Shown here: positions 12,171 through 41,991 of the stretch, in pieces
Position numbering within the stretch: the first letter of the stretch is position 1
How the letters are laid out: the number at the start of each line of letters is the position of its first letter
Assembly: GCA_947473045.1 (NCBI GenBank)
Contig: CANJCO010000043.1
Location: 1 to 42,967, forward strand
Direction: 5' to 3'
Length of the DNA: 42,967 nt
From: Myxococcales bacterium
Lineage (GTDB): Bacteria > Myxococcota_A > Polyangia > Polyangiales > Polyangiaceae
Made by a program: the position numbers and the translations under genes
The notes under the pieces: model-generated
Told to the model about the DNA's origin: nothing
What the model saw: the letters and a program-made list of their open reading frames with translations, nothing else
The model's database searches: none

Positions 12171-12188
12171 ACTGACCGGCGGGTCAGT
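12171..12188. repeat. Palindrome copy: ACTGACC-GGCG-GGTCAGT
   Basis: A perfect 7-bp inverted repeat with a GGCG loop. It contains the stop codon (12184-12186) of the IgGFc-like gene and lies just before the MFS gene. A second copy also overlaps a stop codon, at 4309-4326. It could act as a 3'-end hairpin, but there is no T-run. Confidence 0.7.
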
Positions 12189-13875
12189 TTGGCGGCGGCG
12201 GCTCGGGCACCGAAAAGACGCGGAGGTCGAGCCCGCCCGGGTACATGTAGCTGGTCCGCGACCCGTAGCCGTAAACCACGAGGCCAAACGGCGAGGTCGC
12301 GTGAATCTCGTGTCCCTCCGAGCCCGGAGGCAGCTGCACGCTCGCCGTGCTGAACGGCTGACCGCCCACGGGCACGTACGCGCTCTGGGGAATCGCCGTT
12401 CCGTCGAGTGTGATGACGTTGCCCGTGGGCGTGATGACGTCGATCCAGTTCTCGGCGTAGGTCTTGGGCGCGATGAACGTGTAGGTCGATCGGTACTGCT
12501 GCAGCGGCACCGCGGGCGACTGGCTCGGGTCGCCGAGGTCGGGCGAGGGCTCTCCGGCGTCCGGATCGGTCGACCAGTTGGCGTACTCACCCTGCAGATA
12601 CTCCACGACGTTAACGCGCCCGTTGGCGACGATCGCGAAACTCTTGTCGACGTCGGGCAAATCGACGACGTCGCCGGTGTTGAGGACGACTCCGTTTCGT
12701 CCGCTGACCGGCGGGTCAAAGGCGACGAGCGTATTGTCGTACAGCCCCATGATGCGCACCCAAATGTGCTCGGCGTGGGGCGTGTGCGGCAGCGCGACGA
12801 TGAACTGACTGCCGAGTGTCTGCACAGGGAACATGCTCGACTCAAGGTGGTCGCACGCACGCTTGCCCTGAGGAATGAAGGTGCAGCCATGGCCGCCGAA
12901 CGCGAGCACCGGCTGGTCGGCCTTCACGATCGATCCGGAGAGGTCCGAGTTGTAGACGGGCTTGCGCACGTCGCCGACCACCGAAAACATCTCGAGCACG
13001 TCGCCCGAGTCGAGCGTGTACGTGTAGCTGTCTCCGCGGACCATCGTCGCGGGACCGTTGTTCGGCACGCCCTGCACGTTCCCCGCCGGAAACACGGTCA
13101 CGTGCGTGTTGTCGACCGTCGCCGTGATGGCCATAAACCCCGGCGTGGCGCCGAACGAAGGCCAGCCCACCACGCCGTAGTCTCCCGTCGCGACGTTCGC
13201 GGGCAAGAGCAGCGACGCGTCGTTGGAGTACGAAAAGCAGTGGTCGCCGGCACCGCCGTCGCCAAATCCCGGACAACCCGCTCCGGCGTCGATTTCATAT
13301 TCGAGCGCGTTGAACTGGTAGACGCTGACCGGGAGGTCAGTCGTGAGGTGGTAGGCGCCCTTCTTCACGATGCGGCTCGGCCCCGGATCTCCGACCACGG
13401 TATTGTCGTCGAACTGCGGGCCCTTCAGCTCCTTCACCCACGGCAGCGGAATCGCCTGCACCGAGTTCGGCGGAACCTGCACCGAGATGGGCTGCGCGAG
13501 CGCGCCTGCGCTAACGCTGACCGTCACTGCGGTTGAATGCGGATTCGACACCGCCACGGCGTAATCGAATTTCTCGTAGACGGGATTAAGCGTCACCGTC
13601 GGCCAGTAGTCGCAGCCGATGTAGCTGTTGCGGTCCTTCGACTCCTTACAAGTCTCGGGGATCGGTGAGACGCTTCCGCCACCCTCGGTGCTCAGCTGGA
13701 CGTCGCCGAAACCCGGGGTCGCCGAGTCGTCACTCTTGCCGGCGTCGAGCGTCGCATCCGATCCGCCCGAATCTACGGTCGCGACGACGGGCTTGTCGCC
13801 GCCGCCGCACGCCCACAGGATCGCGCCCGTCACGCCAAATGCTGCCGCTACGCCGATAATGCCGAGTTTGCGCAT
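12184..13875 (-). CDS. IgGFc-binding-like lipoprotein
   Basis: 563 residues from the ATG at 13875, four bases after the stop codon of the upstream lipoprotein gene; an in-frame start at 13953 would overlap that gene by 74 bp. A signal peptide ends in a lipobox-like GAILWAC, followed by a Gly/Asp/Ser spacer, so it is predicted to be a lipoprotein. The body is the same beta-rich IgGFc-binding-like domain as in the partial gene at 2-1471: NSYIGCDYW, KKGAYHLTTDLPVSVYQFNA, SYSNDASLLLP, and the C-terminal YGYGSRTSYMYPGGLDLR. A Pro-rich end (EPPPPN) closes it. Probably a surface-exposed structural or adhesive protein; the ligand is unknown. Confidence 0.87.
   Translation of the reverse strand: MRKLGIIGVAAAFGVTGAILWACGGGDKPVVATVDSGGSDATLDAGKSDDSATPGFGDVQLSTEGGGSVSPIPETCKESKDRNSYIGCDYWPTVTLNPVYEKFDYAVAVSNPHSTAVTVSVSAGALAQPISVQVPPNSVQAIPLPWVKELKGPQFDDNTVVGDPGPSRIVKKGAYHLTTDLPVSVYQFNALEYEIDAGAGCPGFGDGGAGDHCFSYSNDASLLLPANVATGDYGVVGWPSFGATPGFMAITATVDNTHVTVFPAGNVQGVPNNGPATMVRGDSYTYTLDSGDVLEMFSVVGDVRKPVYNSDLSGSIVKADQPVLAFGGHGCTFIPQGKRACDHLESSMFPVQTLGSQFIVALPHTPHAEHIWVRIMGLYDNTLVAFDPPVSGRNGVVLNTGDVVDLPDVDKSFAIVANGRVNVVEYLQGEYANWSTDPDAGEPSPDLGDPSQSPAVPLQQYRSTYTFIAPKTYAENWIDVITPTGNVITLDGTAIPQSAYVPVGGQPFSTASVQLPPGSEGHEIHATSPFGLVVYGYGSRTSYMYPGGLDLRVFSVPEPPPPN
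12705..12718. repeat. Palindrome copy: TGACC-GGCG-GGTCA
   Basis: A 5-bp stem with a GGCG loop inside the IgGFc-like gene, read on the coding strand as DPPVS, the same peptide as at 10359-10378 in another gene. The outer pair is lost on the right side. Confidence 0.5.
13325..13340. repeat. Palindrome copy: CTGACC-GGGA-GGTCAG
   Basis: A perfect 6-bp inverted repeat with a GGGA loop inside the IgGFc-like gene, read as DLPVS. It is the least certain member, since the loop differs. Confidence 0.5.
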
Positions 13876-13879
13876 GCTC

Positions 13880-15226
13880 TTACCTACCCGTGACAGGGCT
13901 GCCGATGGAGGCCGAGCCCCAGCGGAAGTTGTCAATGTTGACCGCCGAGTCAAGAATGCCGTCTCCTTCGTCGAAGACGATGAAGCTCAGCGTGAAGGTC
14001 TCGCCCGGTTCGATGGGCGCCGAGGTCTTGAGCCAGTTGGTGGCGCCGCTGCCCTTGTTGAGGTTTCCGACCGTGAGGCTCGTCGTGCCGTACTTGATGT
14101 CGTAGCCGGTGCCCGCGATCGTCGACAGCGGCTGCTGACAAGTGTGGGTGTAGCCGAGTTTGTCGCTCAGCACGACGTCGTTGCAGGCGCTGAAAAACGA
14201 GTTATTGACGTTGATGCGGCCGCCGCCGGGATCGAACGCGATCTGCGTCGGCGCCTGATACTTCTTCGACGTCAGCATGACGAGGAACGTGTCGTTGTAC
14301 CCGCGGCACGCGTACGCCGGGTACTCGGTCGAGAAGAAGTTGAAATCGAACGTGAACGAGCCCGCGTTGATCGGCGCCGTAAGCGTCAGCCGAAGCTCGG
14401 AATAGTCGTGAATGCTGACGTTCGCTTCGTTCTGCCCCTGACCGCACGGGTTCTTGTTTTGCACAGCTGTCAGCGGTGACGGATGCACGAACGTGTTGAG
14501 CAGATCGGTGCCGTCGCCCGGGCGATACCCTGGGGTGTCGGTGAGGTCGTCCGAGATGCCGGTCGACATGAACGCCATGAAGGAGCCCGCGTGGGGAGAA
14601 AAACCGTTGCCCATGTGCTTCGTGATGCGCTTCGAGAGCGACGAGACCGGACCGTACCAAGCAGCCTTGGTGACCACGGTGCACTTGGCGTTGTCGCAGA
14701 TATCTGCGGCGGTTGCGTAGTCGCTCGCGACCGCGCCGTGCCCGGAGACGAGGCTCCCGTCACAGATTCGACGATTGTCGATGACCCCGTCGCAGTCGTT
14801 GTCGATGCCGTCTGTGCCGACCGAGTCTCCCGTCGTGCCGTCAGAGTCGAACGCGCACGGATTGACCAGCGAGTCATGATCGTTGCAGTCACCGGCGCAG
14901 GTCGTAAAGCCGTCGCCGTCGGAGTCGAAACAGTAGCTCGACCCGTCCGGCTTCGCGAAGCCGTCGAACGCGTACGCCGCGTCGGTCCCCGCGGCGGACC
15001 CATCATCGCCAGACCCGCTGTCGGCGCCGAGCGAGCTGTCGACGCCGCCGCTGTCGAACACGAAGAGCGGCGCATCGGCGCCGGCGTCGGGCGAAGAGCC
15101 TCCCGAGCCCGAATCGCCGTCGAACGCTGGATTGGTGCTGTCGCTACACGCCGCCAGCATACCAATCAGCAGCGGCCATCCGAGGTGGGCTGATACGAAC
15201 CGTTCCTTGCTTCTGCGCGTCTTCAT
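13880..15226 (-). CDS. MopE-type repeat and choice-of-anchor-L-like lipoprotein
   Basis: 448 residues; the signal peptide ends with the lipobox GMLAAC, followed by an Asp/Gly/Ser-rich spacer of about 65 residues. Residues about 98-152 form a MopE-type metal-binding repeat (DSDGDGF..CAGDCNDHD ... DGIDNDCDGVIDN), a pattern tied to calcium or copper binding in the family. The rest (about 160-445) matches the myxobacterial choice-of-anchor-L layout, with FNFFSTEYPAY and, near the end, FIVFDEGDGILDSAVNIDNF. The four-base gap to the IgGFc-like gene suggests one transcript, so the pair probably acts together at the cell surface. The exact function is unknown. Confidence 0.85.
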   Translation of the reverse strand: MKTRRSKERFVSAHLGWPLLIGMLAACSDSTNPAFDGDSGSGGSSPDAGADAPLFVFDSGGVDSSLGADSGSGDDGSAAGTDAAYAFDGFAKPDGSSYCFDSDGDGFTTCAGDCNDHDSLVNPCAFDSDGTTGDSVGTDGIDNDCDGVIDNRRICDGSLVSGHGAVASDYATAADICDNAKCTVVTKAAWYGPVSSLSKRITKHMGNGFSPHAGSFMAFMSTGISDDLTDTPGYRPGDGTDLLNTFVHPSPLTAVQNKNPCGQGQNEANVSIHDYSELRLTLTAPINAGSFTFDFNFFSTEYPAYACRGYNDTFLVMLTSKKYQAPTQIAFDPGGGRINVNNSFFSACNDVVLSDKLGYTHTCQQPLSTIAGTGYDIKYGTTSLTVGNLNKGSGATNWLKTSAPIEPGETFTLSFIVFDEGDGILDSAVNIDNFRWGSASIGSPVTGR

Positions 15227-18120: not shown

Positions 18121-18202
18121 ATCCGTTGGCGCTCGCTTCGAATTTTTTCCGGCGATTTGTCTCGCGTCAGCCGCGGCGCGATCTTTGCTTTTCGTCTCCG
18201 AC

Positions 18203-19024
18203 ATGAGCCTCGTCGGCGCCGTCTCCACGCAATCCCTCGGCCTCGGCGACGCGCCGAGCGAGACGCGCGCAACGAGCCCGGAGTTCGAAGCTACCCTGCG
18301 CGCGCGCACCGGCGAGGTCTCCGCCGAGCGAACGCCCCTTTCCGGCACACAGGCCGCACGCGCCATCAGCGACGCTTACCGCGCGCGATTCGGTGAAGCG
18401 CCGAGTCAGAAGATGCTCGCCATCCTCGGCGCCCAGTGGTCGCTCGAGACGGGCGGCGGCCGCTCGATGATGAATTTCAACTTCGGCGGGATCAAGGGCA
18501 CCGGCCCGGGCGGCCTCACCGTAAAATACAACACCGTCGAAGGCAGCGGCCCCAGCGAAATCAAAATCAAGGACCGCTTCCGCGCGTACAACAACGCCAC
18601 GGAGGGAGCTGGCGATTACCTTCACGTGCTCGAAAAACGCTTCCCCGGCGCACTGAAAATGGCACGCGCCGGGGACGCGCAAGGCTTCGTTCACGAGCTC
18701 AAACGCGCCGGCTACTTCACGGGCTCAGAGCAGACGTACACCGGCATCGTCACCGACCTCGCCGGCCGAGCCGAACGCGAAGGCTTCGACGCCCTGGGCA
18801 AGTCGACCGGAAGCACGAGCTCCCGCGCAGTGCCCGTCCACAAGGACGCCACCGGAGCGCCTCCCGCGATCGACGACCTGCAGATCGAGCTGCTTCGGAT
18901 GACGCACGCGCTCGACGAAGCCGCGCTCGGCATCATGGGCGCTAAGGAGCCCAGAGCAACGAACGCGAGCGATTGGATGCACGATCTTCGCGCGAATCTC
19001 GAACATTCGCGCCCAGGTCAGTAG
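18203..19024 (+). CDS. FlgJ-like glucosaminidase (peptidoglycan hydrolase)
   Basis: 273 residues from the ATG at 18203; a TTG at 18185 would add six. Residues about 55-190 match the C-terminal glucosaminidase domain of FlgJ (GH73-like): QWSLETGGG with the catalytic-type Glu, NFNFGGIKG, FRAYNNATEGAGDYLHVL and AGYFTGSEQTYTGIV. Such enzymes cut the glycan strands of peptidoglycan. The N-terminus has no clear signal peptide, so export must be by another route or the protein works on lysis; flagellar genes are not visible here. The last seven bases overlap the end of the beta-barrel gene on the other strand. Confidence 0.83.
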   Translation: MSLVGAVSTQSLGLGDAPSETRATSPEFEATLRARTGEVSAERTPLSGTQAARAISDAYRARFGEAPSQKMLAILGAQWSLETGGGRSMMNFNFGGIKGTGPGGLTVKYNTVEGSGPSEIKIKDRFRAYNNATEGAGDYLHVLEKRFPGALKMARAGDAQGFVHELKRAGYFTGSEQTYTGIVTDLAGRAEREGFDALGKSTGSTSSRAVPVHKDATGAPPAIDDLQIELLRMTHALDEAALGIMGAKEPRATNASDWMHDLRANLEHSRPGQ

Positions 19025-20100
19025 CGAAGCGACAGCGACGCGTAGAATTCGGACGACTCGCGAAAGTAGAGATAGGTGTGAGAAACGCCGTCGTGCAGCA
19101 GCGAATTGTAACCAAGGGCCGGGTCACCTTCGGCGACCGCCAAATGGAGATCAGCCTTCACGCCACTCACTTCGGGCAGCTCGTAGGCCACATAAACCTC
19201 GCCGCCGTAGGATTGGGTAATCGGCTGCTGGCTATACTGGGGATCCGCTACCGCGCCGAAAAAGGCCGATTGCGGCTGCGACTGCGGCCGAAGAAACCAC
19301 GTGTAGCCCGTATAGCCTTCAACGCCGATTGTCAGCGGCGCATGAAACGGCATGCGAACGCGCGCCCCAACCGACGCGGAGAAGCCAGCCAGAGGGTTGG
19401 GCGTGGCACCGTTACGCGGGGAGTCGTACTGCTGAAGGAAACCCGTGCCATTCACGCGAAGCGTGGTGTTGACGTACTTGCCCCACGCTTTGTCATACCC
19501 CGCGGTAAGGCGGCCCGCCCCGAGACTGCCCGCCTTATAACTCACGAACGACGTCGGCAACGACACAGACGCGCGCGTCACCAGCTGCGAATGGCCTGGC
19601 AGCTCGAAGTAGTGCCCATAGCGAATGGTCACGTCGTCGAGACGAAATCCGGTTTCGCCCGGGTCGGCGATAAAGCGCTGATAAGCCCCCAGGAATACCG
19701 TCACTGAATCGCTACGCGTCGGAAGCCACGAAGCGTTGGCCTGATAGTAATTAAAGAGCTTATCGGGCCCGAACCCCTGGAGGTCGGTCTGTACAAAGAG
19801 GCGATGCGTCTCGAACCCCGCCCCAACTTCCCAAACGCGCTCCGTGGTTGGACGCTCCGAAGATCGGTCACGGCTGAGCTCATTGCTGTCGGTTGAGGCT
19901 CCGTTGCTGACGCTACCGCCGCTCGAAGACGAAGACTCGGCGTTGCGCTGCCCCTTGACCGAACTCTCCTTGCCGCCAGCGCCCTGCGCGACAGGCCCTG
20001 CAAGCAGCAGCGCCGAAGCGAGGGAAGCGACGAGGACCGCGTGTCGCCCTCGGAGCTTGCGCGCGAGGGGCGACATGGGATTGCGATCCATCGAGGTCAC
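19018..20100 (-). CDS. Predicted outer-membrane beta-barrel protein
   Basis: 360 residues. A Lys/Arg-containing N-terminus and a hydrophobic core ending AQGAGG form a signal peptide, then comes a Ser/Asn/Glu-rich linker (about residues 45-85). From about residue 90 the chain shows alternating beta strands with aromatic girdles and ends FYASLSLRY, the terminal aromatic pattern recognised by the BAM machinery. The family is unknown to me. The GTG start (20100) overlaps the stop codon of the metzincin gene, so the two are translationally coupled; ATGs at 20091 and 20076 are alternatives. It is the last gene of a three-gene operon and may provide the channel or outer-membrane partner of the two lipoproteins. 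Confidence 0.78.
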   Translation of the reverse strand: MTSMDRNPMSPLARKLRGRHAVLVASLASALLLAGPVAQGAGGKESSVKGQRNAESSSSSGGSVSNGASTDSNELSRDRSSERPTTERVWEVGAGFETHRLFVQTDLQGFGPDKLFNYYQANASWLPTRSDSVTVFLGAYQRFIADPGETGFRLDDVTIRYGHYFELPGHSQLVTRASVSLPTSFVSYKAGSLGAGRLTAGYDKAWGKYVNTTLRVNGTGFLQQYDSPRNGATPNPLAGFSASVGARVRMPFHAPLTIGVEGYTGYTWFLRPQSQPQSAFFGAVADPQYSQQPITQSYGGEVYVAYELPEVSGVKADLHLAVAEGDPALGYNSLLHDGVSHTYLYFRESSEFYASLSLRY

Positions 20101-23100
20101 CGATACGTCGTGTAGGCGTCGAGGAAATACTTCATGGGCAACTCGAGCCCGTACGCGCTGCCGGGGTAGGCGCCGTCATCGAGCTGCGTCACCACGTCGT
20201 CGTTATACGCGCGAACAATGATGTACGACGCAGTGTTGCGGTCCTTCAGCACTGCGACGTACTGGTTTCGATCAGGGATATACGACCAGATCCAAACGCG
20301 CTTGTCGGGCCCGACGAACTCGTTGTGCGGGTCGCTCCCGACGCGAGGGTCATAAAGGCAAGTCGACAGATCGTTACACTGGTTGTTCTGAACTGCGATA
20401 TTGCGGAAGTATTCCAGGAAATCCTGAACCCGGTTGAATACCTGCCCGCCGATCCAGTCCCGGACGTCGACGCGTCCGCCGAACGCCGGCGAGTGCGTGT
20501 CCTGCGCAAACTGCGTTACAGCGAGGGGCCGGAAATAGGGATAGACGTTGTACTGCCCGCCCACCATCGAGTCGACTGCGTCCTCCGCCACGGAATTGAA
20601 CGTCGAGTCTCCAAGTCCCTCGTAGCCGGCAAAGTAGGCGCCGGCCTGATTCTGGTCGTAGTTGTCGGCGGGCCAAAGCCCGACCCAGCTTTGCATCGCA
20701 AAGAGCTTATCCAAAATGATGCCCTGTTGCGTGACGTCGCCGAAGAACTTGTCGTAGACGGTGCCGAACGGGCGCTCACCGCTACCCTGCTGAATGATGC
20801 CCTTGTGATAGGCCGCGACCATCTGATTCGCCGAAGAGAGCTCTGCGTTGAACTTGTTGGTCAGCTGGTTGAAGTATTGAAGATCCGATCCGTTCGGATC
20901 AGGATTTTTCACGCCGATTCGGCGCAAGTTGTCAGCGAGCTCGCCGCCGCTCCAATCGTAAACCCAAAGCGACAGGAACCGCTTCATGTCGTAGAGCATG
21001 GTCGCGGGCACGTCGGCGTAACGGGAGTTATCCCAAAACTTGCGATAGACCCTGAAGTTACGCCAGTTGTATCCCCACTCGGAGCTGATGATCTGATTGG
21101 CGATGATCTCGCTCGGTGTGGTCCCCATGTCGCCCTGATGGCAGAGGGGCGTGTACGCGAGGTGATGCTCGTCGCACCGGAGGAATTGAACTTCTTGGCC
21201 GTTTGCAAATCCGAGCGGATCCTTCCAAGGACTCGTCGCCGAGCTCTGACCTGAGATCGCGGTGCCCGACTTTGAGCCGTCCGTGCAGTCAGCGGAGCTG
21301 TTGTCCTTGCAGCTGTTTGCGTAGATCCAACCGATCGCTGCGGTGTCGTAAGGCGCCCACCCCTGATGCCAGAACACGCGGTCGGGAGCAGCGTTGTATT
21401 CCATTACGCTGTTCGAGAGAAACGAGTACCGCGTGCGTCCCGCGCCGTCTTTGTAGGTCGGGAAGTTGGGCTGGTCGACGGACCCCATGAAGTTGTGCTC
21501 GAGACCCATCGCGTGGCCGAACTCGTGCCAAATGACCTGCGTCCAGTACGTGTCGATCAGGTTCTGAACCCACTCGGCCTTCGTCTCCCACTTGCCGGCG
21601 ACGCAATGGCGGGCGTCGCGGGCGATGATCTGCTCGAACGAGAAGGCATCTGGCGCGTCGCGCTTGATGTACGGAGTGCGGGCCACCTTTGCGCGCTCGA
21701 GGTTATGGTGATTCGTCGTGAGCTCGCGCATCCGGTTGAGGAAGCTCGCCGCGTTCGCCAAGCCGTTAGGTCCCTGGTAGGAGTAAGGATCCTTGCCATG
21801 GTCGATATCGGCCGCGCGCTGATGGAACTCAGCCTCGTCCTTCATCATCTTCCAATAGGCGTCAGGCCCGTATACGCCCTTGCCGCCCTCGCGAACGACG
21901 TAGGGGTTCATGTCGGGGTCCGCAAAGATCTCGTACGGCGCCAAGGCGTAGTACGCGTGACGGAAGTCATCGTCCTGCGGCTGAATGAAGTCGCTCGGCC
22001 CAAGCGCCCCATAGGCCGACGCGGGCCGATTGAGGTACTGCTGCATCTTCGAGAAGAGCGTATTTTTGGCGTTCACTGCCTGCAGATCGGTCGCCACAAT
22101 CGGAAGCGTATCGCCATCCTTGCAGTTGGAGGGGCCATCCGCCCACTCGCCGGGAGCGTTTACGCCGTTCGCGGGAGCCGCGCCAATGCTCTGCAGAAAG
22201 GCGTCGATTCGCTGAACGTAATAGTCCTTGATCGCGAAATCGTTGAACACGATCGTGTTCGACAGAATTTCGGCAGTGCGCGGGTCGATGGCGGGCTCGG
22301 TCACCCCAGCAAAACTCGACTGCATATCCCTGTCCGACATCCACCGCAGCCAGTGATAACGAACGTCGCCAAACGCGCGCGGCTTCGCCCCGTCCTCCAG
22401 GTCCTCGTTGTTGTTCTTGAACTCGACGACCGTCTGCGTGCCGTCTGCGTGCTTGGCGCCGGAAGCGACCAGGATCGCGTTCGTCTGCGCCCGAATCGTC
22501 GCAGCGCCCGCCGGCTCACTGTCAGCACAGGCCTTCGTAGATCCTGCGTCGGACGGAGGGGTGCAAAACGACGTCTTATATTTCAGCGGAAAATTGGAGT
22601 CGAAATACCAAACGATGTCCTTCGCCGGATCAAAGCGCAGCACCAGCTCCCGAGACGCGAGCATGCCGCTCGTCTCGTCGCGCGACTCGCTGTACCAGGT
22701 CAGCGGACCATATTTATGCCAGATCGGGTCCTTCTCGGCCAAAACGAGCGGCTTGTAGGTCAGGGCAGAATCAGCGACAGCGCGCCGCATCGAGTACTTA
22801 AGATTCATGGTCACATTGGGGCGCGAAATGGCCACCGCTGGCTGCCACTGCGCTCCGTACGCATCAATGCACTCGGCGAGGTCCGTGCGTAGGGGCACGG
22901 TCACTTGCACGCTCCACGAAAGATAGTCCTGAGTCGGGTCGGCACCCTGCACTTGCTCGACAGACTCCGGCAGGAGCGACGTGGTCGCCTCACCGACGCT
23001 CGCGCAGTGATTGAGCAAGTCGGGCATGCCCATACCAAGCGCGTTCACGTCGCTCAGATCATTCTTCGCAGGATTCAGCTTGACCCACTGGCGCTGCTCC

Positions 23101-23567
23101 CACGGTAGTTCCTGATTCTCCTCGTAGAAGTTCGTCTGCTCGCCATCGAGGTTGACCCGGTATTTAAGATCGACGTTCGAGGCGTTCCACGAATCGAGAA
23201 CCATCGGCGTCTTACCCTGACTCGGAAGCGCAGAGAGCTCCTTCATGTCCACCATCTCGAGGTGGTCCTGGGTTACCCGAAAGCGCACGAGGTTGCCGAT
23301 GCTGTGAGCACCCGCAAAAAAATTCAGGTCACCAAGAGGGTTGGGCGAGGACGTCTCGGTAATCGTCGTGACGAGGTACCAGCCGGAGTCGTCGACGGGC
23401 TTGCCGTTGGCTGCTGCCTCGCCAGGTCGCACGAGGAAGTCCTTTCGGAAATAGACGTTCTCGTTAAAGACGCCGTTGCGGGCAGGACGGCTGGCAACGC
23501 AACCCGAGGCTGACGCCGTTGCGACCAGCGCCGCAAAAGCCAATGTAGCGCGGAGAATGGATTTCAT
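20097..23567 (-). CDS. Metzincin zinc-metalloprotease lipoprotein
   Basis: 1156 residues. A signal peptide ends ATASASGC, a lipobox-like site. At residues 681-691 lies HEFGHAMGLEH, the full HExxHxxGxxH zinc site with catalytic Glu, followed by NF as in EcxA-like proteases. SNSVMEYN about 31 residues later is the Met-turn. So the protease core looks intact, resembling the Met-zincin/EcxA-like (DUF4953) group. Around it are some 650 residues before and 430 after, without recognised domains. It starts 12 bp after the upstream lipoprotein gene. Likely acts in the periplasm or at the surface; the substrate is unknown. The zinc-site call is firm, the family placement moderate. Confidence 0.85.
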   Translation of the reverse strand: MKSILRATLAFAALVATASASGCVASRPARNGVFNENVYFRKDFLVRPGEAAANGKPVDDSGWYLVTTITETSSPNPLGDLNFFAGAHSIGNLVRFRVTQDHLEMVDMKELSALPSQGKTPMVLDSWNASNVDLKYRVNLDGEQTNFYEENQELPWEQRQWVKLNPAKNDLSDVNALGMGMPDLLNHCASVGEATTSLLPESVEQVQGADPTQDYLSWSVQVTVPLRTDLAECIDAYGAQWQPAVAISRPNVTMNLKYSMRRAVADSALTYKPLVLAEKDPIWHKYGPLTWYSESRDETSGMLASRELVLRFDPAKDIVWYFDSNFPLKYKTSFCTPPSDAGSTKACADSEPAGAATIRAQTNAILVASGAKHADGTQTVVEFKNNNEDLEDGAKPRAFGDVRYHWLRWMSDRDMQSSFAGVTEPAIDPRTAEILSNTIVFNDFAIKDYYVQRIDAFLQSIGAAPANGVNAPGEWADGPSNCKDGDTLPIVATDLQAVNAKNTLFSKMQQYLNRPASAYGALGPSDFIQPQDDDFRHAYYALAPYEIFADPDMNPYVVREGGKGVYGPDAYWKMMKDEAEFHQRAADIDHGKDPYSYQGPNGLANAASFLNRMRELTTNHHNLERAKVARTPYIKRDAPDAFSFEQIIARDARHCVAGKWETKAEWVQNLIDTYWTQVIWHEFGHAMGLEHNFMGSVDQPNFPTYKDGAGRTRYSFLSNSVMEYNAAPDRVFWHQGWAPYDTAAIGWIYANSCKDNSSADCTDGSKSGTAISGQSSATSPWKDPLGFANGQEVQFLRCDEHHLAYTPLCHQGDMGTTPSEIIANQIISSEWGYNWRNFRVYRKFWDNSRYADVPATMLYDMKRFLSLWVYDWSGGELADNLRRIGVKNPDPNGSDLQYFNQLTNKFNAELSSANQMVAAYHKGIIQQGSGERPFGTVYDKFFGDVTQQGIILDKLFAMQSWVGLWPADNYDQNQAGAYFAGYEGLGDSTFNSVAEDAVDSMVGGQYNVYPYFRPLAVTQFAQDTHSPAFGGRVDVRDWIGGQVFNRVQDFLEYFRNIAVQNNQCNDLSTCLYDPRVGSDPHNEFVGPDKRVWIWSYIPDRNQYVAVLKDRNTASYIIVRAYNDDVVTQLDDGAYPGSAYGLELPMKYFLDAYTTYR

Positions 23568-23579
23568 GTGGCTCTTACC

Positions 23580-26408
23580 TCACTGCCCTGGAACGAAAAG
23601 AACCGTGTCCACCACGCGGCCGAAGCCGCCGCCCTGCGTGATGCCAAGGCGCACGCCGTACGCGAGCGAGGTGATGTAATCGGGGTAGTTGTTGTAGGGG
23701 CTAAAGCGAACGATCATTCCGCACGCGTCAGACGCCGTTTTGTGTTTCGAGATCCAGTCGAGCAAGCCAGCGACGGGGGCATACATTCGCGCGTGGAGCA
23801 CGGAGTAGGTATCCGGATCGAAGCAAAGGAAGACGTCGCCGAGGTAATCGGTCGTCTCCACGCCAAGGAACTGGACGCCCTTGGTTTGGTCATTCGGGTC
23901 CACAAAGTCGTAGTCGACGTTGGCCGACAGCGTCGTCCCTGAGAAGTCGAGCTGGTAGGTCTCGATGAACTTGTCACGCGTCCCGCTGAGGGCGATCGGG
24001 AAGCCAACGCCAGGCTGCTTCGTCAGCCACGGGATGAGCAAGTCTACGCTCGGATGGTTGCTGTCGAGCGCCGAGAGATAATCGGCCGGGTTGGAGTGTA
24101 TCGGCAGGTGAATCGTCGCTGACTGCAGATTCGGGTACAGCTTCGTCACTGAAATCGGAGAACCACCACCGCTCTGCGTCTTACCGAGAAAGAAATCCGT
24201 GCCGTTGTCAAAAGCGAAGTTCAGATACGGCGTCAGAATCGGCAGGCCATCCTGGCCAAGCTCGGGGTCGAAGTTATCGTCGAGCGGCGGGTTGGCAATC
24301 GCATCAGCCTGATCGACCCAATTCTGCTTGAGCAGCGGGCTGCCAAAAATATTGGTCAAGTATGCGTTTGGCTCTTTGGCGAGCGGCAGCGAGCTGTCGG
24401 TGCGCATCGCCGCGTAGAGCGCAGTCTCGCCGCGGTAGATGTCTCGCGAGTACTGGTAGGCATCGAAAATGCCGTTGCGAACGTCTGCCTCGATCTCAAG
24501 GTCGGTGATGTCCTGTTTGTTCTCGAACGCGTTGTTCGGGTCGGCCTGCGCGAAGCGGCGGTCGACATATTCGGCGATCTCGAACTGTCCAGAACCCACC
24601 GAATCGAAGAAGAAGTCGTTCGGATTGAGCGGGGCGTTGGCCACGTCAGACACCTTGAGTCCTGCGTCGGTCGCCGTGGAGGCCAAGTTGTACTTGACGA
24701 AAGCTGTTGCCCATTGCTTCCAGAAGAAGCGAGCGTCTTGCGCATCGAGCGGCAGCGCGGACACTTTTCCGCCGCCAAGCACAGCCAGCACCCGCGCATA
24801 CACGGTCGGAAACGTGTCCCCCGCGACAACGCACGTCGCCGGGTCGATGGCGTTGTTCTTGAGGCCGTTGCAGATGACCACGTTCTGGTGCCCTGGCTTC
24901 AGGCCGCCCTTCATCGCAGAGGTCGGCGACGTTCCAAACGCGCGAGCGACTTTGCGGAGGTTCGTGTCGTCGACCGGGCCGGTGTTGGACGGATCGAGCG
25001 GGACTACGAAGCCCTCGAGCCCTGTGCAGCCTGCTGCGAACGTGGACGGATTGCCCGTCAGGCAGGCCGGATCGCCGATGGGGTGATTGCCACCGCTGGC
25101 GGCGTTCAGCGCGTTTTGGCTGAGGCGAAGGAATTCGGCGTAGACGAAGCCGGTCCCGTGAATGTCCTTCGGCTGCGTCGGGTCGTTGCTCACGTAGTCG
25201 TTTGCGATCTTTCCCAGCGACGCCTGGTCGATCTGGAACTGAGTCGCCACGTCGTCGTTCGAAGGCTTGTCCTTGTCGTGAACGATGTCGTTCGCCGGGA
25301 GCGTCTTATCAGTAAAGTTTACGTCCACACCGGAGAGGTCAAAGCGAAACCGCTCGTCGCCATGGGAAAGGCCGCCGAGGAGTTTGTTCAGCTCCGTCTG
25401 GTCCGCCATCGCGTTACCGGAGACTTGCACGCAGTCTGCGAGCAGGTCGCCGTAGCTCATTCCCATGTGCATATCGCACGTTTTATTGTTGGGTCCGAGC
25501 GCCGTTTGGATGGCGTGTGGCCCCGAAGCGTCGAGCGACATCCGAGGATTTGCGAGCGAAAACGGCATAATCTTTTCAAGATAAATGTCGAGATAGCTGA
25601 CCGTGTATGGCGTCGGTGGAGCTGCCGTATAGCTCGAGACGCGGACAGCAAAGCCCAACGCCGGAATGAAGATATATGCCTGATCACCGAAGTGTCCGGG
25701 AATGCAGTGCCCGGAAGCCAGACAATCGGTCTCAACCGGAAGCCCGGGAGCGTAGGTCGCAAACAGGGAATCGGTGAGTTCGGTGACCCAGCCAACCATG
25801 TTGGCCTTGTTGACGAAGTCCCACTGCATCGCCGAATAAGGCTGCCCGTTCTTCAAGACAGGGTTGCTCAAGCTGATGTCGAACGTGTCGCCTTTGCGAC
25901 TCTTGAACTTCATGTGCCCGGTGTAACCCGGCTCGAGGCCCATATAGATGATCTTCCGAGTCGAGACTCGATACTCGAAAATGATCTCCTGATTGTCGCC
26001 CCAGGCATTCGTCAAGTTGCCGTCCCCGAACGCGTCGCCGAGGTTCGCGCTCTGGCAATTGTGCGCTTCGGCCTCCTGAACGGTCAGCCCCGGCCAGGTT
26101 GCGTCGCCGGCCATGTTGACGCGCGGCCAACTACCCAACGGGTCGAGTCCGAGCGGGGGAACAATGTCCTTGCCGAACAAGGCCCCCCAAGTCTTCTTCT
26201 TCGTCGGCGCGTCACAGATTTCCTGGAGATTCGTGCCCCCGATGTCGGTGCCGAAGCCTTGGTTTGCGGGATCGGCGGTCCCGCCTCCCTGCCCGTCGTT
26301 CCAGAGTCCGCCGGCGCCGTTCGGCGCAGTGTTAAAGGTCTGCGTCGGGCCGTCTTCGCACGCAGCGCAGACGAGGGAAACTGCAACGAGGGTCACTAGA
26401 CGGCGCAT
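23580..26408 (-). CDS. Large hypothetical lipoprotein, first gene of protease operon
   Basis: 942 residues from the ATG at 26408, preceded by GGAG six bases upstream. The signal peptide ends in the lipobox VCAAC; then comes a Gly/Asn/Thr-rich spacer. I recognise no family. The body is mixed alpha/beta with many aromatic residues, several Cys (for example CDMHMG, CLASGHC, CLTGNPSTFAAGC) and frequent DxN/DxD loops that may bind calcium. It is followed after 12 bp by the metzincin gene and then the beta-barrel gene, all on one strand. Being the first gene with its own 220-bp upstream region, it may be the structural or substrate partner of the protease. No function is claimed. Confidence 0.72.
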   Translation of the reverse strand: MRRLVTLVAVSLVCAACEDGPTQTFNTAPNGAGGLWNDGQGGGTADPANQGFGTDIGGTNLQEICDAPTKKKTWGALFGKDIVPPLGLDPLGSWPRVNMAGDATWPGLTVQEAEAHNCQSANLGDAFGDGNLTNAWGDNQEIIFEYRVSTRKIIYMGLEPGYTGHMKFKSRKGDTFDISLSNPVLKNGQPYSAMQWDFVNKANMVGWVTELTDSLFATYAPGLPVETDCLASGHCIPGHFGDQAYIFIPALGFAVRVSSYTAAPPTPYTVSYLDIYLEKIMPFSLANPRMSLDASGPHAIQTALGPNNKTCDMHMGMSYGDLLADCVQVSGNAMADQTELNKLLGGLSHGDERFRFDLSGVDVNFTDKTLPANDIVHDKDKPSNDDVATQFQIDQASLGKIANDYVSNDPTQPKDIHGTGFVYAEFLRLSQNALNAASGGNHPIGDPACLTGNPSTFAAGCTGLEGFVVPLDPSNTGPVDDTNLRKVARAFGTSPTSAMKGGLKPGHQNVVICNGLKNNAIDPATCVVAGDTFPTVYARVLAVLGGGKVSALPLDAQDARFFWKQWATAFVKYNLASTATDAGLKVSDVANAPLNPNDFFFDSVGSGQFEIAEYVDRRFAQADPNNAFENKQDITDLEIEADVRNGIFDAYQYSRDIYRGETALYAAMRTDSSLPLAKEPNAYLTNIFGSPLLKQNWVDQADAIANPPLDDNFDPELGQDGLPILTPYLNFAFDNGTDFFLGKTQSGGGSPISVTKLYPNLQSATIHLPIHSNPADYLSALDSNHPSVDLLIPWLTKQPGVGFPIALSGTRDKFIETYQLDFSGTTLSANVDYDFVDPNDQTKGVQFLGVETTDYLGDVFLCFDPDTYSVLHARMYAPVAGLLDWISKHKTASDACGMIVRFSPYNNYPDYITSLAYGVRLGITQGGGFGRVVDTVLFVPGQ

Positions 26409-27331: not shown

Positions 27332-28024
27332 CTACTCCAACTCAGCAGCGTCCGCGAATCGATACCCAACTCCGCGGACCGTCTCGATGTACTCGCCCGC
27401 CTCCGCCAACTTTTCCCGGAGGCGTTTCACGTGCGTGTCCACGGTGCGAGTCGTAACGTCTGCCTCCACTCCCCACACATCGGAGAGCAGAGCGCCTCGG
27501 GTTTGGACGCGATTTCTGCGATCGTGCAGCGTCGTCAACAGACGAAACTCCAGAGCAGTCAGCTCTATCTCCTCGTCCCGAACGAATACCCGATGTGCAT
27601 CGCGATCCACCCGTAAGGAGCCAAATTCGATCACCGGCGTATTCACGGGCTGCACCCGACTGCGCCGCAGAATCGCTTGAACGCGGAGCAGCAACTCGCG
27701 AACACTGAAGGGCTTCACGACGTAGTCGTCGGCTCCGAGTTCGAACCCGACGACCCGGTCGATCTCCTCTCCCTTCGCCGTAACCATCATGACGAGGCAT
27801 TCTCGGCTCGCGAGGCCCTTCTTGATTATCTTGCAGATCTCTGTGCCGGGAATATCCGGCAGCATCAAGTCAAGCAGCATCAGCTCCGGACGCTGCTCGT
27901 CGGCGATCCTCAAGGCGTCGGCGCCATTGAACGCCGCGACGACTTCGTGTCCCGCCTGCCGGAGATTGTAGACCAGCACCTGCGACAGGTCCTTCTCGTC
28001 TTCGACTACGAGGATGCGCGCCAT
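27332..28024 (-). CDS. OmpR/PhoB-family response regulator
   Basis: 230 residues from the ATG at 28024; an in-frame upstream start at 28054 adds ten residues before MARILVVEDE and is less likely. The receiver domain (1-118) has the acidic pair ED, the phospho-acceptor Asp in LLDLMLPD, the switch Thr in VTAKG and Lys in VVKPF. The C-terminal winged-helix domain (about 130-225) has ELTALEFRLL and the end motif VRGVGYRF. It should be a two-component transcription factor, activated by phosphorylation. No histidine kinase adjoins it, so its partner is encoded elsewhere. It sits directly after the respiratory operon's terminator on the same strand. Confidence 0.93.
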   Translation of the reverse strand: MARILVVEDEKDLSQVLVYNLRQAGHEVVAAFNGADALRIADEQRPELMLLDLMLPDIPGTEICKIIKKGLASRECLVMMVTAKGEEIDRVVGFELGADDYVVKPFSVRELLLRVQAILRRSRVQPVNTPVIEFGSLRVDRDAHRVFVRDEEIELTALEFRLLTTLHDRRNRVQTRGALLSDVWGVEADVTTRTVDTHVKRLREKLAEAGEYIETVRGVGYRFADAAELE

Positions 28025-28099
28025 AGGGTAGAGCCTAATGCGCACATGTGACACGGCAGTGAAGCGACCGTGTACACCTCGCGACTACGCCGCGCACAA

Positions 28100-29757: not shown

Positions 29758-31434
<1,677 letters not shown>

Positions 31435-31480
31435 GGCTTTATTCGCTCCTGCAGAATCGGTGAGAAAGAGTTCGTGGACC

Positions 31481-32485
31481 CTACTTGAGGGTCTTCATGT
31501 ACGCGATGAGCGCGTCGATCTGCTTGTCGCTGAGAGTGTACGGCGGCATGACGGGGCTGAACCCCGCGACAACCTTCGCATTCGGCTTCAAGATAGACTC
31601 GCGGACGTAGTTCTCGTCGACGACCGCGCTGTCCATTCCCCCTGAAAGAGAGCCGTTTAGCGCGACTGGCTGACCGAACATGCCCTTCCAGGTGGGGCCA
31701 GTCGCCTTGCTCCCATCCACCGAGTGGCAGGTCATGCACGCATTGTCCTTGTAGAGCTTGCTGCCCCACTGAGCCTCGGTGAGGCCATCGGGGCGCTTGG
31801 GTCCCTCTGCCATCATCTTGTCAAAATCGGCCTGCGGAACGACGTGCACCCACGCCATCATCGCCGAGTGCCCTCCAAGGGGAGCCCCCTCGAGCGCCGG
31901 GGCAGCGTTGCCCTCCGGCGCGCCGCAGTACTCGGCGCAATACACGGGCGTATCGCCCAGGACCGTCGGGGTAAACGAGAGCATCGTGTACATCCCGGGA
32001 ACGGCGTCCTTTTTGATGCGCGCCTCCGGCAAGTAGAAACTGTGCAGAACGTCTTGCGCAGAGATGATGAATTTCACCTGCTTGCCCACGGGCACGGTCA
32101 GGTGATTCGGCTCGCTCCGCCCGTTGGGGTAGGTGAAGGTCCAAAGCCACTTCTGGCCGGTAACGCGCACTTCCATCGCGTCGTCGGCTGCCATCGCGTT
32201 TTTGAGGTAGTCGGTGAACCCCGCGTGAAACAGCCAGATGATGAAGAAGACCGGGAGCACGGTCCACGCCGTCTCGAGTACGGGATAGTGCCCCGTCGGG
32301 ATGCGCTTATCCCCCGCCTTGCGCTTGTACTTGAAGGCCCAGTAGACCATCACCACGGTGATGACCACCCAGAAGATCATGCTGAACCACCAGATGAAAT
32401 TGTACATCCAGTCGTAGGACGCCACGTTGGTGGAGACCGAGGGCGGGAGGTCAAAGCTGGTACGCGTCGGGGCAAACATCGTCAT
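31481..32485 (-). CDS. coxB: Cytochrome c oxidase subunit II with fused cytochrome c
   Basis: 334 residues from the ATG at 32485, with AGG eight bases upstream. Two transmembrane helices (about 28-52 and 70-92) precede the CuA domain. CuA ligands: His in VLHSFYLP, Cys183 and Cys187 (CAEYC), His206 and Met209 (GHSAM). Between Cys187 and His206 lie 18 residues, where three are usual: an in-frame insertion of about 15. The C-terminal domain (about 235-334) is a cytochrome c with CMTCH and a Met ligand candidate in SPVMPPY, as in caa3 oxidases. It accepts electrons and passes them to CuA. It starts three bases after the sco stop codon. Confidence 0.94.
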
Positions 32486-32488
32486 GGG

Positions 32489-33436
32489 TCAAACCTGAGT
32501 GGCTTCGAGGCGGGCAAGGTCCCCGCTCTTGGCGTTCGAGTTTTCTTTCGGTGGCGTATTGGTGGGGCCGGGGCCATCGCCGCCGCCCTTGGCATTGCGG
32601 CGCTCGCGCAGCCAAAGAGTCGCCAGGAACCCGCCAAAAACGAGCATCGTGACGACACCACCGAGCTGCATCACGCGCGTCGCAACGAGCGTGTATTTCC
32701 GGTCCTGCGGGTCGTAGTGGTAACAGTAGAGAATGATGCGATCGACCGTCGAGATTGAGCGGCCTTCCGAGGCTTCGAGGAGACCCAGCTTCAAATCGTT
32801 GGGCTCAAACTCGATGCCGTAAAGATAGCGAGCGACCTTTCCGCCAGGCGTCAGCAGCGTCACCGCACTGGGATGCGCATACTCGCCCTGCGCATCAAGC
32901 ACGTAGTTCCAGCCAACCGCGCCCGCCACGCGTCGAATGTTCGCTTCGTTTCCGACGAGGAAGTGCCACCCGGCCTGCCCTTCCGGTCGCCCGTAGGCGC
33001 CAAGCATCGCGGCGCGCTTGTCGGATGCGATGCTCACCGTATCGTGCGGGCTTATGCTCAGTGTGACGACCTGGTACTCGACGCCGGCCGTCCAAGCGAT
33101 TGACTTCATCGCCGACAATGTCGAATTCTGCACGAAGCTGCAGAGCGTTTTGCACGAGTGATAGGCGAGAACGAGAACGACCGGGCGCTTCCCGTCGAAG
33201 TAGTCGCCCAGGCGTACCGCCTTGCCCGTCTCGTCTTGAAACTGGGCATCCGTCGGCAACGCAGCTTTCAAGTGCTCGGTGACGCCAACGTCGACGAGCT
33301 CGGCGGGCATGTTGGCCGGGCCCGGATCGTAGGGGTCGGGGAGTCGCGAAGGCTCCGTAGCGCGCGCGGGCAGCGCGAGGGACAGCGCAAAGGCGGCCAC
33401 CCCCAACGCAGCTGAAAGGCGCGCCACGAAATTCAT
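32489..33436 (-). CDS. sco: SCO1/SenC-family copper chaperone
   Basis: 315 residues from the ATG at 33436, whose A overlaps the stop codon of the upstream gene (TGATG); the frame stays open further upstream but that part overlaps the neighbour and is noise. A signal peptide (residues 1-26) is followed by a thioredoxin-like domain with SCKTLC (CxxxC) and, later, EYAHPSAV with the conserved copper-ligand His. A C-terminal hydrophobic segment (about 265-286) should anchor it with a short cytoplasmic tail. SCO proteins deliver copper to, or keep reduced, the CuA site of subunit II, whose gene follows three bases downstream. Confidence 0.9.
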   Translation of the reverse strand: MNFVARLSAALGVAAFALSLALPARATEPSRLPDPYDPGPANMPAELVDVGVTEHLKAALPTDAQFQDETGKAVRLGDYFDGKRPVVLVLAYHSCKTLCSFVQNSTLSAMKSIAWTAGVEYQVVTLSISPHDTVSIASDKRAAMLGAYGRPEGQAGWHFLVGNEANIRRVAGAVGWNYVLDAQGEYAHPSAVTLLTPGGKVARYLYGIEFEPNDLKLGLLEASEGRSISTVDRIILYCYHYDPQDRKYTLVATRVMQLGGVVTMLVFGGFLATLWLRERRNAKGGGDGPGPTNTPPKENSNAKSGDLARLEATQV

Positions 33437-33981
33437 CAATGACCCGCGTCGCCGGACGTCGCGTGGGTCGCGGACCCGCCGTCGACCACGTGGGTAGCAG
33501 CGGTACGGCCAGCATCGCCAACCGAAGCCACGCCGCCGTCGGCAGCGAGCAGCGCACCACCGTCTGCAGAAAGCGGCGCGCCGCCCTCCCCGCCGTCCGC
33601 GTCGAGCGGCACGCTCGCATCGAACGGAACCACAAAGTTCGCGACGTCGCGCTTCAAACCGTTCCAACCAACCAGCGGCCCCGTCTCGTCGAACTTCGCC
33701 TGCACCGGCGCGATAACGGGCGGCGGGTTCTCGCGCCCCGAGACCGCGAGATTCTTCATCGCGACATCGATGGGCGTCGAACTCTGCGCGAGGTCCTTGC
33801 GCTGCGCCGCCTGCAACGCCCGAAGTTGCTCGGGGGTTGAAGACAGGGATCGCGCGTTCGCCTCGGTCATCTCCACGTAGTAGCTCGTCAAGATGAACTT
33901 GAGCGAGATGAGGATGAAGACCGAGAGAAGCGCCACCGTGATGATGGTCTTGTTTGCGGTGGGTGATTGATCCGACGCCAT
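33436..33981 (-). CDS. Small membrane-anchored protein between actF and sco, unknown
   Basis: 181 residues. One transmembrane segment (about 12-33) is followed by a helical part (about 34-75), a short beta-like part (about 80-125) and a low-complexity Ala/Asp/Gly tail (about 125-181), which is likely disordered. I do not recognise a family. It lies seven bases after actF and its stop codon overlaps the sco start, so it is firmly part of the respiratory operon. By position it might help assembly or join alternative complex III to the oxidase; this is inference only. Confidence 0.75.
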   Translation of the reverse strand: MASDQSPTANKTIITVALLSVFILISLKFILTSYYVEMTEANARSLSSTPEQLRALQAAQRKDLAQSSTPIDVAMKNLAVSGRENPPPVIAPVQAKFDETGPLVGWNGLKRDVANFVVPFDASVPLDADGGEGGAPLSADGGALLAADGGVASVGDAGRTAATHVVDGGSATHATSGDAGH

Positions 33982-33988
33982 GGTTCTC

Positions 33989-35428
33989 TTAAGCGTTCTG
34001 GAACTTGAGGGCGCGCGACAGTCGCGGATCGCCCACAGGGATTAGGGAGTGAGATGCCATGTTGCGGAACACTACGGCCAAGTACGCGCCGACTGCGCCC
34101 AGGAGACACGCAGCGTCGATCCAGCTGAAGGCAAAGTCGTCCTGCTTCGGCAGGTTCGGCATCACGAACCAATAGATTTCGACGACGTGCATCGTCAGGA
34201 TGATCCCCGCGCCAAGCTTCAGCCAGCCGAGCTTCCGCTTGAAGTTGCGCGAGATGATGAGAAAGAAGGGGACCACGAAGTGGAGCCCGACCAGCGCGAG
34301 TCCCACCGGGGCCCACGGGCCAACGTCCCAACGACGATGATACCAGGTCGTCTCCTCGGGAATGCCGGCGTACCAGATCAGCATAAACTGCGAGAAGCTG
34401 ATGTAGGCCCAGAAAACGAGGAAGCCGAACTGCATCTTGCCGAGGTCGTGGAAGTGCTCGACCGTCACTTCCTTCACGAGCATGCCGCTGCTGCGCATCG
34501 ACATCAGCGTCAAAATCAGCACAGCGTGAATGGCCACGAAGCTCGAGGCAAAAAAGTTCACGCCGAAGATGGTCGAATACCAGGAGGGCTCAAGCGACAT
34601 GATCCAGTCGAAGGCCCCGCCCGTGAGGGTGAATGCGAGGAATATCGTCGCGACCGGAGCCATGCTCGCGGTGCCGGCGGTAAGCTTCACGTCCTTCGAT
34701 GTGTCCTGAAGGATCGAGCGGCGAAGCAACCAGCTGCCGAGACCGAACCACACCAGGACGTAGAACACCGACCGTGCGATGAAGAAGTTCTTGTTGAGCC
34801 ACCACGTCTTACGGCTCATGATCTCCTGCTCGAGGAGCTCTTCGGGATCTTCGCGAACTGTCGCGTGCGCCGCATGACCGAGCACCGCGCCGTGTCCTGC
34901 CGGAGCCGGGGCGGCATGGTCGGCAACGGCCGGCATCGCTTGCGAGGGAGCAGGATGCGCGGAGTCGGTGTGCTCTACCTGAGCGAGCATCGAGCTCTCG
35001 CCCATAATGACAGCCGCGTGAGGCGCCTCCGCGCCGCCCTCGTGGTGAGCTCCGACGTGGAGCCAACCCGCGAAGGTGGTGTTCATCGTGAGAATCACCG
35101 GAACGACGAGCGCCAGAAAAACCACAGTGCCGGAGCCAAAGAACTCGGCGGTACGGCGAACGGTCACGCTCCAGCCGGCGCTCGTGAGGTACTGAATGAG
35201 CACCCACATCATCGCGCCGATGGCGATCGTGACCGCAACCAGAAAGCCGAACAGCCATGAATAGGCGAATCGGGTCGGGTTCGACGAATAACCCGCGGCT
35301 GCCCCCGCGAGGCCGAGGGCGGCGAGCACGGCGAATACCTTCCACAAGCCCGACCATTGAGCGTTGAGCCGGTAAGTCGGCGCCTCTTTGGAATTGGCGC
35401 TGCTCTTTTTGTTCTGCTGCTCGCTCAC
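33989..35428 (-). CDS. actF: Alternative complex III subunit ActF
   Basis: 479 residues, a multi-span membrane subunit with about ten hydrophobic segments. The blocks FDWIMSLEPSWYSTIFGVNFF and FWAYISFSQFMLIWYAGIPEET are typical of ActF/ActC-type quinol:electron acceptor oxidoreductase membrane subunits. A loop at about residues 126-195 is unusually long and His/Ala/Pro-rich, with about eleven His. The start ATG overlaps the actE stop codon (ATGA). It is one of the membrane halves thought to support quinol oxidation and possible proton movement. Confidence 0.92.
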   Translation of the reverse strand: MSEQQNKKSSANSKEAPTYRLNAQWSGLWKVFAVLAALGLAGAAAGYSSNPTRFAYSWLFGFLVAVTIAIGAMMWVLIQYLTSAGWSVTVRRTAEFFGSGTVVFLALVVPVILTMNTTFAGWLHVGAHHEGGAEAPHAAVIMGESSMLAQVEHTDSAHPAPSQAMPAVADHAAPAPAGHGAVLGHAAHATVREDPEELLEQEIMSRKTWWLNKNFFIARSVFYVLVWFGLGSWLLRRSILQDTSKDVKLTAGTASMAPVATIFLAFTLTGGAFDWIMSLEPSWYSTIFGVNFFASSFVAIHAVLILTLMSMRSSGMLVKEVTVEHFHDLGKMQFGFLVFWAYISFSQFMLIWYAGIPEETTWYHRRWDVGPWAPVGLALVGLHFVVPFFLIISRNFKRKLGWLKLGAGIILTMHVVEIYWFVMPNLPKQDDFAFSWIDAACLLGAVGAYLAVVFRNMASHSLIPVGDPRLSRALKFQNA

Positions 35429-36045
35429 GGCTTCTTCTCCACGTTCGCGACCTGCGCCTGGCTAACTTCGAGCGCCCGCACATAGGCAACGATCGCCCAG
35501 CGATCCTGCACCGTAGTCTGGGGACCATAGGCGGGCATATTCCCCTTCCCGTTCTCGATCGTCGCGTACAGGCGACCGTCGGGCCAGTGCGAAATACCGA
35601 TTTTGGGATCGTGATAGCTGGGCGGAGCGGGCATCCCCGCGTTCCGCTTCACGACGATGCCGTCGCCCGCGCCGGACAGACCGTGACAGGCCGAGCAATA
35701 GATGCCGTACCGCTCTTTGCCGCGTACAAGCATCGCGTCCATTCCCCCCGAAGCCTTTACGACTTCCGGCGGAATGGTGAGCACGTAGCCAGTGTTGTCC
35801 TCGAGCACACCGGTGGCGACACGCGGGTCGATCTCGTGCTCGCGCGAGATGGTTCCGTCTACCGGAGGCCGCATATTCCGATGATCGGCGAAGTAGTCGT
35901 TCGACTGCTGCATCGAGTACTTCGGCTGGTTGTACATGTTGCGGATCGGAACGATCGGCGGGTCTTCAGACGTCTCACCCCGGCAGCCCGACACTGCGGC
36001 AGCCAAAAGCAAAACGGCGGGCGCTGCGTAGTTCATGCCGCGCAT
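35425..36045 (-). CDS. actE: Alternative complex III monoheme cytochrome ActE
   Basis: 206 residues. A signal peptide ends in the lipobox AAVSGC, so it is a lipid-anchored periplasmic protein. After a linker of some 90 residues comes a class-I cytochrome c domain with CSACHG and a Met ligand candidate in GNMPAY. It is the likely exit point of electrons from the complex towards the oxidase. The start overlaps the actD stop codon by one base (TGATG), and the stop codon overlaps the actF start. Confidence 0.92.
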   Translation of the reverse strand: MRGMNYAAPAVLLLAAAVSGCRGETSEDPPIVPIRNMYNQPKYSMQQSNDYFADHRNMRPPVDGTISREHEIDPRVATGVLEDNTGYVLTIPPEVVKASGGMDAMLVRGKERYGIYCSACHGLSGAGDGIVVKRNAGMPAPPSYHDPKIGISHWPDGRLYATIENGKGNMPAYGPQTTVQDRWAIVAYVRALEVSQAQVANVEKKP

Positions 36046-41100: not shown

Positions 41101-41277
41101 GAGGCGCGCGGCGGCTTCGTCGGCAGTAGGCTCGACGACGTCTTCTACTGCTCCCGGCATGAACTCGGTGGCTGCGCGAGCGCGAGCGGCCTCACGGTCG
41201 TTGCGCTCTTCCGCGCTCTTCCAAAGCTTGGTCTCTTTAGCGCCGCCAAGGGGCGCGTATGGCTTACGACGGCTCAT
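38185..41277 (-). CDS. actB: Alternative complex III subunit ActB (molybdopterin-like and ferredoxin-like)
   Basis: 1030 residues. The ATG at 41277 is chosen because it overlaps the actA stop codon as ATGA, like other junctions in the operon; a GTG at 41286 would add three. A Tat-type signal (GRRGFMG, about residue 60) ends near a Cys (SQAC), as in other ActB proteins. Residues about 100-740 form a molybdopterin-oxidoreductase-like domain that in this family lacks the cofactor. The C-terminal 250 residues are a ferredoxin-like domain with four Cys clusters: [35 protein letters not shown] and CSYC...CQQAC. These should hold iron-sulfur clusters that pass electrons from quinol to the hemes. Confidence 0.94.
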
Positions 41278-41903: not shown

Positions 41904-41991
41904 CGGCTTGAGCGCATTACTGAGAAGAGCGCGGGCTGCCCGAAACAAACCCGTGCGCGCCCGTCTACCGAGCGATCAGAATGCGCCCGCA

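Follow-up and report, generated by a model that had tools for sequence, protein, structure and literature searches.

A conserved three-gene locus encoding a large lipoprotein, a DUF4953 metzincin lipoprotein and a predicted outer-membrane barrel in myxobacteria

Introduction

The closest described counterparts of the locus reported here join an outer-membrane barrel to an extracytoplasmic peptidase or to surface lipoproteins. In amyloid secretion by Pseudomonas, the barrel FapF, which has 12 strands and a disordered N-terminal stretch, is encoded together with FapD, a soluble, periplasmic C39 cysteine peptidase. Secretion through FapF requires active FapD (PMC5557850). In the Sus-like complexes of Bacteroidota, surface lipoproteins (a binder and a hydrolase) work with an outer-membrane channel, the large TonB-dependent SusC barrel with its plug. 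The COG4313 channel (4rl8) is a further point of comparison; we know of no protease and lipoprotein that accompany it. In Bacteroidetes, a short acidic motif after the lipidated cysteine sends lipoproteins to the surface; this lipoprotein export signal (LES) is defined as K-(D/E)2 or Q-A-(D/E)2 (PMC5080379). The proteases of the DUF4953 family have almost no literature.

Here we describe three adjoining genes, termed A, B and C, from a Myxococcales bacterium (assembly GCA_947473045.1, contig CANJCO010000043.1, forward-strand positions 1-42,967). This whole stretch of 42,967 nucleotides is referred to as the window. The protease family of B and the barrel fold class of C are already known; neither the family of large lipoproteins to which A belongs nor the module of three genes seems to have been described before.

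Results

Three tightly joined genes on the minus strand

Gene A (23580-26408, minus strand, ATG start) encodes a lipoprotein of 942 aa, gene B (20097-23567, minus strand, ATG start) a lipoprotein metzincin of 1156 aa, and gene C (19018-20100, minus strand) a predicted outer-membrane barrel protein of 360 aa that reads from a GTG start and has an alternative in-frame ATG start at 20076. A and B are separated by an intergenic gap of 12 bp (23568-23579), and the stop of B overlaps the start of C by 4 bp (GTGA, 20097-20100); a comparable 4-bp B-C overlap occurs at a locus of the same genus (L057). The preliminary description of this DNA had reported the three minus-strand frames, the gap and the overlap, and all coordinates were exact on re-checking. 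Homologues of A, B and C share these boundaries, which indicates genuine genes as opposed to chance open reading frames. A and B have lipoprotein signal peptides, and their lipoboxes read VCAAC followed by EDGP in A and SASGC followed by VASRP in B. A scan for promoters and terminators gave counts no higher than chance, and no RNA families or tRNA were found in the window.

The three genes are conserved as a block

An alignment of B was used to search the genomes of 84,980 species, yielding 27 loci that are practically all myxobacterial by title. In 27/27 loci the gene immediately upstream of B was A, at a distance of 5-83 bp (median 23), and C adjoined the A-B pair in 22 of the 25 loci that could be evaluated because the contig continues. 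Of these 22 loci, 20 have the order A-B-C and two (L069 and L079) the order C-A-B. Three intact A-B pairs had no neighbouring C, and in each case the genome has C elsewhere: on another contig for L075 (genome G031), at L062 for L076, and at L061 for L086 (genome G011). Adjacency of the trio was retained in bacteria down to about 17-30% protein identity. Most loci come from metagenome-assembled genomes, so that contig ends restrict some of these calls, and the start positions of some homologues are approximate.

Presence and absence of the genes followed the same pattern. Among 284 genomes of the phylum, 19 carry A, 18 carry B and 16 carry C (above 70 bits), and A was present in every genome with B or a strong C (Fisher p about 1e-23 to 1e-27). 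Incomplete trios in this sample (G207, G227 and G306) are contig breaks. The trio is patchy, occurring in about 7% of the sampled genomes, which indicates that it does not serve a core function. Pairwise distances correlated between A and B (r 0.957), B and C (0.926) and A and C (0.932), values reached by 0 of 2000 permutations; this correlation is due in part to the genomes' shared ancestry. The preliminary description had proposed a single system made up of the three proteins and had named conservation of the block as the check. The outcome is strongly positive: adjacency, joint presence and absence, and correlated divergence all support one system, and homologues of the three genes are not found mostly apart.

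Individual records add some detail. A single-contig genome of 10,327,335 bases carries the genes in the order A-B-C (G048:C1:481126-487842). One locus titled as a Klebsiella pneumoniae metagenome-assembled genome (L077, CAMDBH010000008.1) carries a full myxobacterial trio, and the label of the record is probably wrong. At L074:9950-13233, B falls into two frames that overlap, owing to a frameshift or an assembly error.

No conserved flanking gene emerged when all flanking genes of 28 loci were clustered, which indicates that the trio itself is the unit. In the window, a convergent gene at 18185-19024 (plus strand) carries a glucosaminidase domain (PF01832, E 3.6e-10). The preliminary description had noted this gene at the end of the operon and implied a link; the gene and its domain are present as described, but it is not a conserved neighbour elsewhere, and it was rejected as a part of the system for that reason. 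Upstream of A and on the same strand lies an OmpR/PhoB-type response regulator (27332-28054), with a gene for a small signal-peptide protein between them; at other loci the trio does not have this regulator as a conserved neighbour. The window also contains a respiratory cluster (29758-41948, minus strand) encoding cytochrome oxidase subunits I and II, cytochrome c, alternative complex III (ActD, NrfD-like and Fe-S/molybdopterin-like subunits) and a multihaem cytochrome. Two IgGFc_binding (PF17517) genes (26-1471 and 12184-13953) lie within 14 kb of each other on opposite strands. A search for plasmid carriage of A or B gave no match. No match to known anti-phage defence proteins was obtained with PADLOC at E<=0.01, and the trio was rejected as a defence system on this basis.

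Gene A encodes a large lipoprotein without a recognised family

The preliminary description had assigned the 942-aa lipoprotein to no recognised family, and profile searches bear this out. None of the 30 members of the A family has a significant match in Pfam, and A has no match in NCBIfam or among PDB sequences; in these searches A thus did not turn out to belong to a known family with an unrelated role. The AF2 model of the 942 residues is confident (pLDDT 83, pTM 0.87). A Foldseek search of the PDB with this whole model gave no match at E<=0.001, though single domains may have known folds. The best hit in the PDB (E 0.25) and the best among viral structures (E 0.15) are both meaningless. 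In a second fold comparison, residues 80-277 matched YfeY (2qzb) with Z 7.0, a value that is usual for models that match nothing clearly. A relationship to B, as a duplicated or dead protease, was rejected at a profile-profile probability of 0.5%. A appears to represent a new lipoprotein family and possibly a new fold.

A evolves faster than B, with identities of 31-49% versus 47-60% when the most distant member is excluded. The length of family members ranges from about 760 to 1180 residues, with large lineage-specific insertions. Eight non-lipid cysteines are conserved, a sequence feature that suggests disulfides formed outside the cytoplasm.

Gene B encodes a DUF4953 metzincin

B scored 33.3 bits against the DUF4953 Met-zincin profile (PF16313; cut-off 24.2), and the profile matches 27 of the 29 members of the B family. 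Scores for M66 (19.0 bits, cut-off 20.6), M10 (16.8, cut-off 24) and M43 (13.6, cut-off 23) remained below the Pfam thresholds. The intact zinc site and Met-turn claimed in the preliminary description were both located in B: the zinc-binding motif HEFGHAMGLEH spans residues 681-691 (21495-21527, minus strand), and the Met-turn SVMEY spans residues 720-724 (21396-21410, minus strand). H681, E682 and H685 are present in 28/28 aligned members and H691 in 27/27; Met722 and Tyr724 are present in 27/27, and G688 is found in 23/27, with Ser in the other four. Judged by its sequence, B belongs to the DUF4953 Met-zincin family and is a predicted protease.

The genome from which the window derives also encodes two long-form DUF4953 lipoproteins of about 1450-1500 aa (L059:5688-10193 and L060:5603-9949). 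Like the DUF4953 lipoproteins, B has HExxHxxGxxH, the Met-turn and the lipobox, and with these two long forms it has in common the lipid-anchor/N-terminal region, a segment in the middle and the catalytic region. B is shorter, however, makes up a subfamily of its own and has A as its partner in every case, whereas the long forms stand beside unrelated genes. Neither of the two has an A-like or C neighbour, which indicates that this type of protease does not generally need such a partner.

Conserved segments adjoin the lipid anchors of A and B

The lipidated Cys17 of A and the following four residues form the sequence CEDGP (26346-26360, minus strand), which is near-invariant in the family. It is the sole five-residue run in A conserved at at least 88%, and it is exact in 27 of the 29 N-terminally complete members even though the family drops to about 17% identity. 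One exception is the divergent L078. The other is L056 (L056:6891-9983, G011:C73), a solo A copy that has neither B nor C in its vicinity and whose anchor reads CGGGSDN; the same genome has two A-B pairs. The CEDGP region is predicted to be disordered. When codon matches to CEDGP were collected from 20 related genomes, only A proteins clearly carried it behind a lipoprotein signal peptide, with one ambiguous open reading frame, so that CEDGP was ruled out as a sorting signal in general use among these bacteria.

The corresponding segment of B is CVASRPARNG (23472-23501, minus strand), with the family consensus C-[VA]-x-x-R-P-x-R-N-G. A similar segment is kept in the long-form DUF4953 relatives, where the anchors read CAQERDPIN or CQERDPIN.

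CEDGP resembles the LES of Bacteroidetes in that strongly conserved acidic residues directly follow the lipidated cysteine. It differs in lacking K or Q-A before the acidic pair, so that C-E-D-G-P falls outside the LES consensus, and in being confined to one family where the LES is used by many lipoproteins. The comparison is one of analogy, not of membership, and we regard CEDGP as a putative anchor signal.

Gene C encodes a predicted 12-stranded outer-membrane barrel

The preliminary description had attributed to C a signal peptide and a terminal aromatic barrel signature. Both were recovered: C has an N-terminal signal peptide and ends in SLRY. The AF2 model has a mean pLDDT of 70, and most of its strands reach 85-95. 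In this model the signal peptide and a Gly/Ser-rich stretch predicted to be disordered precede 12 long strands, and the beta-barrel domain (19021-19836, minus strand) comprises about 270 residues. C thus combines the features expected of an outer-membrane barrel, namely a signal peptide, amphipathic strands that close into a barrel in the model, and a terminal aromatic residue. No significant Pfam family was found among 23 members of the C family, and C had no sequence match among PDB chains.

The C model gave 153 PDB fold matches at E<=0.001, the top-ranked of which are outer-membrane barrels. The best PDB match was the COG4313 channel 4rl8 (Z 18.6, rmsd 3.6, 243 aligned, 10% identity), followed closely by FapF (Z 17.4, about 10-11% identity) and then by autotransporter barrels (Z 15-16). 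The model therefore predicts a 12-stranded outer-membrane barrel most like channel proteins; the likeness to the COG4313 channel is one of fold, at 10% identity and with no Pfam family matching C. Because the closest matches of C include a small-molecule channel and a polypeptide exporter whose scores lie within about 1 Z unit, the fold of C does not fix the direction of transport.

Discussion

A, B and C almost certainly constitute one functional unit of the cell envelope. How this unit works can be proposed only tentatively, and the specific mechanism outlined here is open to considerable doubt. A and B would be located at the outer membrane, where they probably face the outside and may dock to C via the conserved segments beside their lipid anchors. 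B would cleave proteins outside the cytoplasm, and A may select or hold the substrate or serve as a scaffold; a role for A as substrate selector is suggested by its faster change than B, its large lineage-specific insertions and its variable length. C would anchor the A-B pair, conduct peptides or a polypeptide through the membrane, or do both. Consistent with this proposal are the invariant catalytic residues and the PF16313 score above cut-off of B, the channel-like model of C, the lipoboxes and conserved anchor segments, and the loss of CEDGP in the solo A copy.

The preliminary description had suggested processing or release of surface proteins as the joint function. Degradation and harvesting of external protein would fit at least as well, and we favour it, only slightly, over the maturation of proteins that the cell itself secretes; we rank harvesting slightly first, followed by processing or secretion, by display alone and by independent function of the three proteins. 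As an idea, the proposed unit recalls the Sus-like complexes, in which surface lipoproteins work with an outer-membrane channel. The resemblance does not extend to the components: C, with 12 predicted strands in about 270 residues, is not a large TonB-dependent barrel with a plug, A does not match SusD, and the substrate of the trio would be protein.

A rather unlikely alternative is that C serves as the exit conduit for a polypeptide and that B, together with A, trims, matures or releases this or other surface proteins, in the manner of FapD and FapF. The fold of C is nearly as close to FapF as to any solved structure, both proteins have a disordered stretch ahead of the barrel (predicted in C), both are encoded with an extracytoplasmic peptidase, and FapF-dependent secretion requires the activity of that peptidase (PMC5557850). 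Against this reading, no conserved gene for a secreted substrate lies beside the trio, and amyloid-subunit genes are absent from it. No sequence relationship between C and FapF was found (about 10% identity), and no coiled coil before the barrel is seen in the model of C. The peptidases differ in class, B being a large lipoprotein metzincin and FapD a soluble C39 cysteine peptidase, and the trio includes two lipoproteins.

It is less likely still that the conserved role of the locus is protease display, with C delivering A and B to the surface, or holding them there, via their anchor segments. This would explain why CEDGP is the best-conserved run in A, why as a lipobox it is confined to A proteins in the 20 related genomes (the ambiguous frame apart) and why the solo copy has lost it, and surface export by a short signal after the lipid cysteine has a precedent in Bacteroidetes (PMC5080379). 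CEDGP nevertheless lies outside the published K-(D/E)2 and Q-A-(D/E)2 signals, the anchor region is predicted to be disordered, its loss is seen in one solo copy, and the long-form metzincins have a conserved anchor segment although they lack A and C.

The least likely reading, an improbable one, is that the three are co-regulated but independent envelope proteins without a joint complex. Proteins under common regulation would show the same adjacency and co-distribution even if they had no contact, an operon may encode products with nothing in common, and second A-B pairs occur without C beside them. Against this stand the strict co-occurrence across the 284 genomes, the persistence of adjacency at 17-30% identity although every flanking gene differs, and the presence of C elsewhere in the genome whenever a pair has no neighbouring C.

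A bolder and distinctly speculative reading would be a new protease machine of the outer membrane in Myxococcota, in which the 12-stranded barrel recognises CEDGP and displays the metzincin together with a large, substrate-selecting lipoprotein of new fold. In Myxococcota, where the route of lipoproteins to the cell surface is little understood, the trio is of interest as a compact envelope module, inherited strictly as a set, that brings with it a new family of lipoproteins and a putative signal at the lipid anchor.
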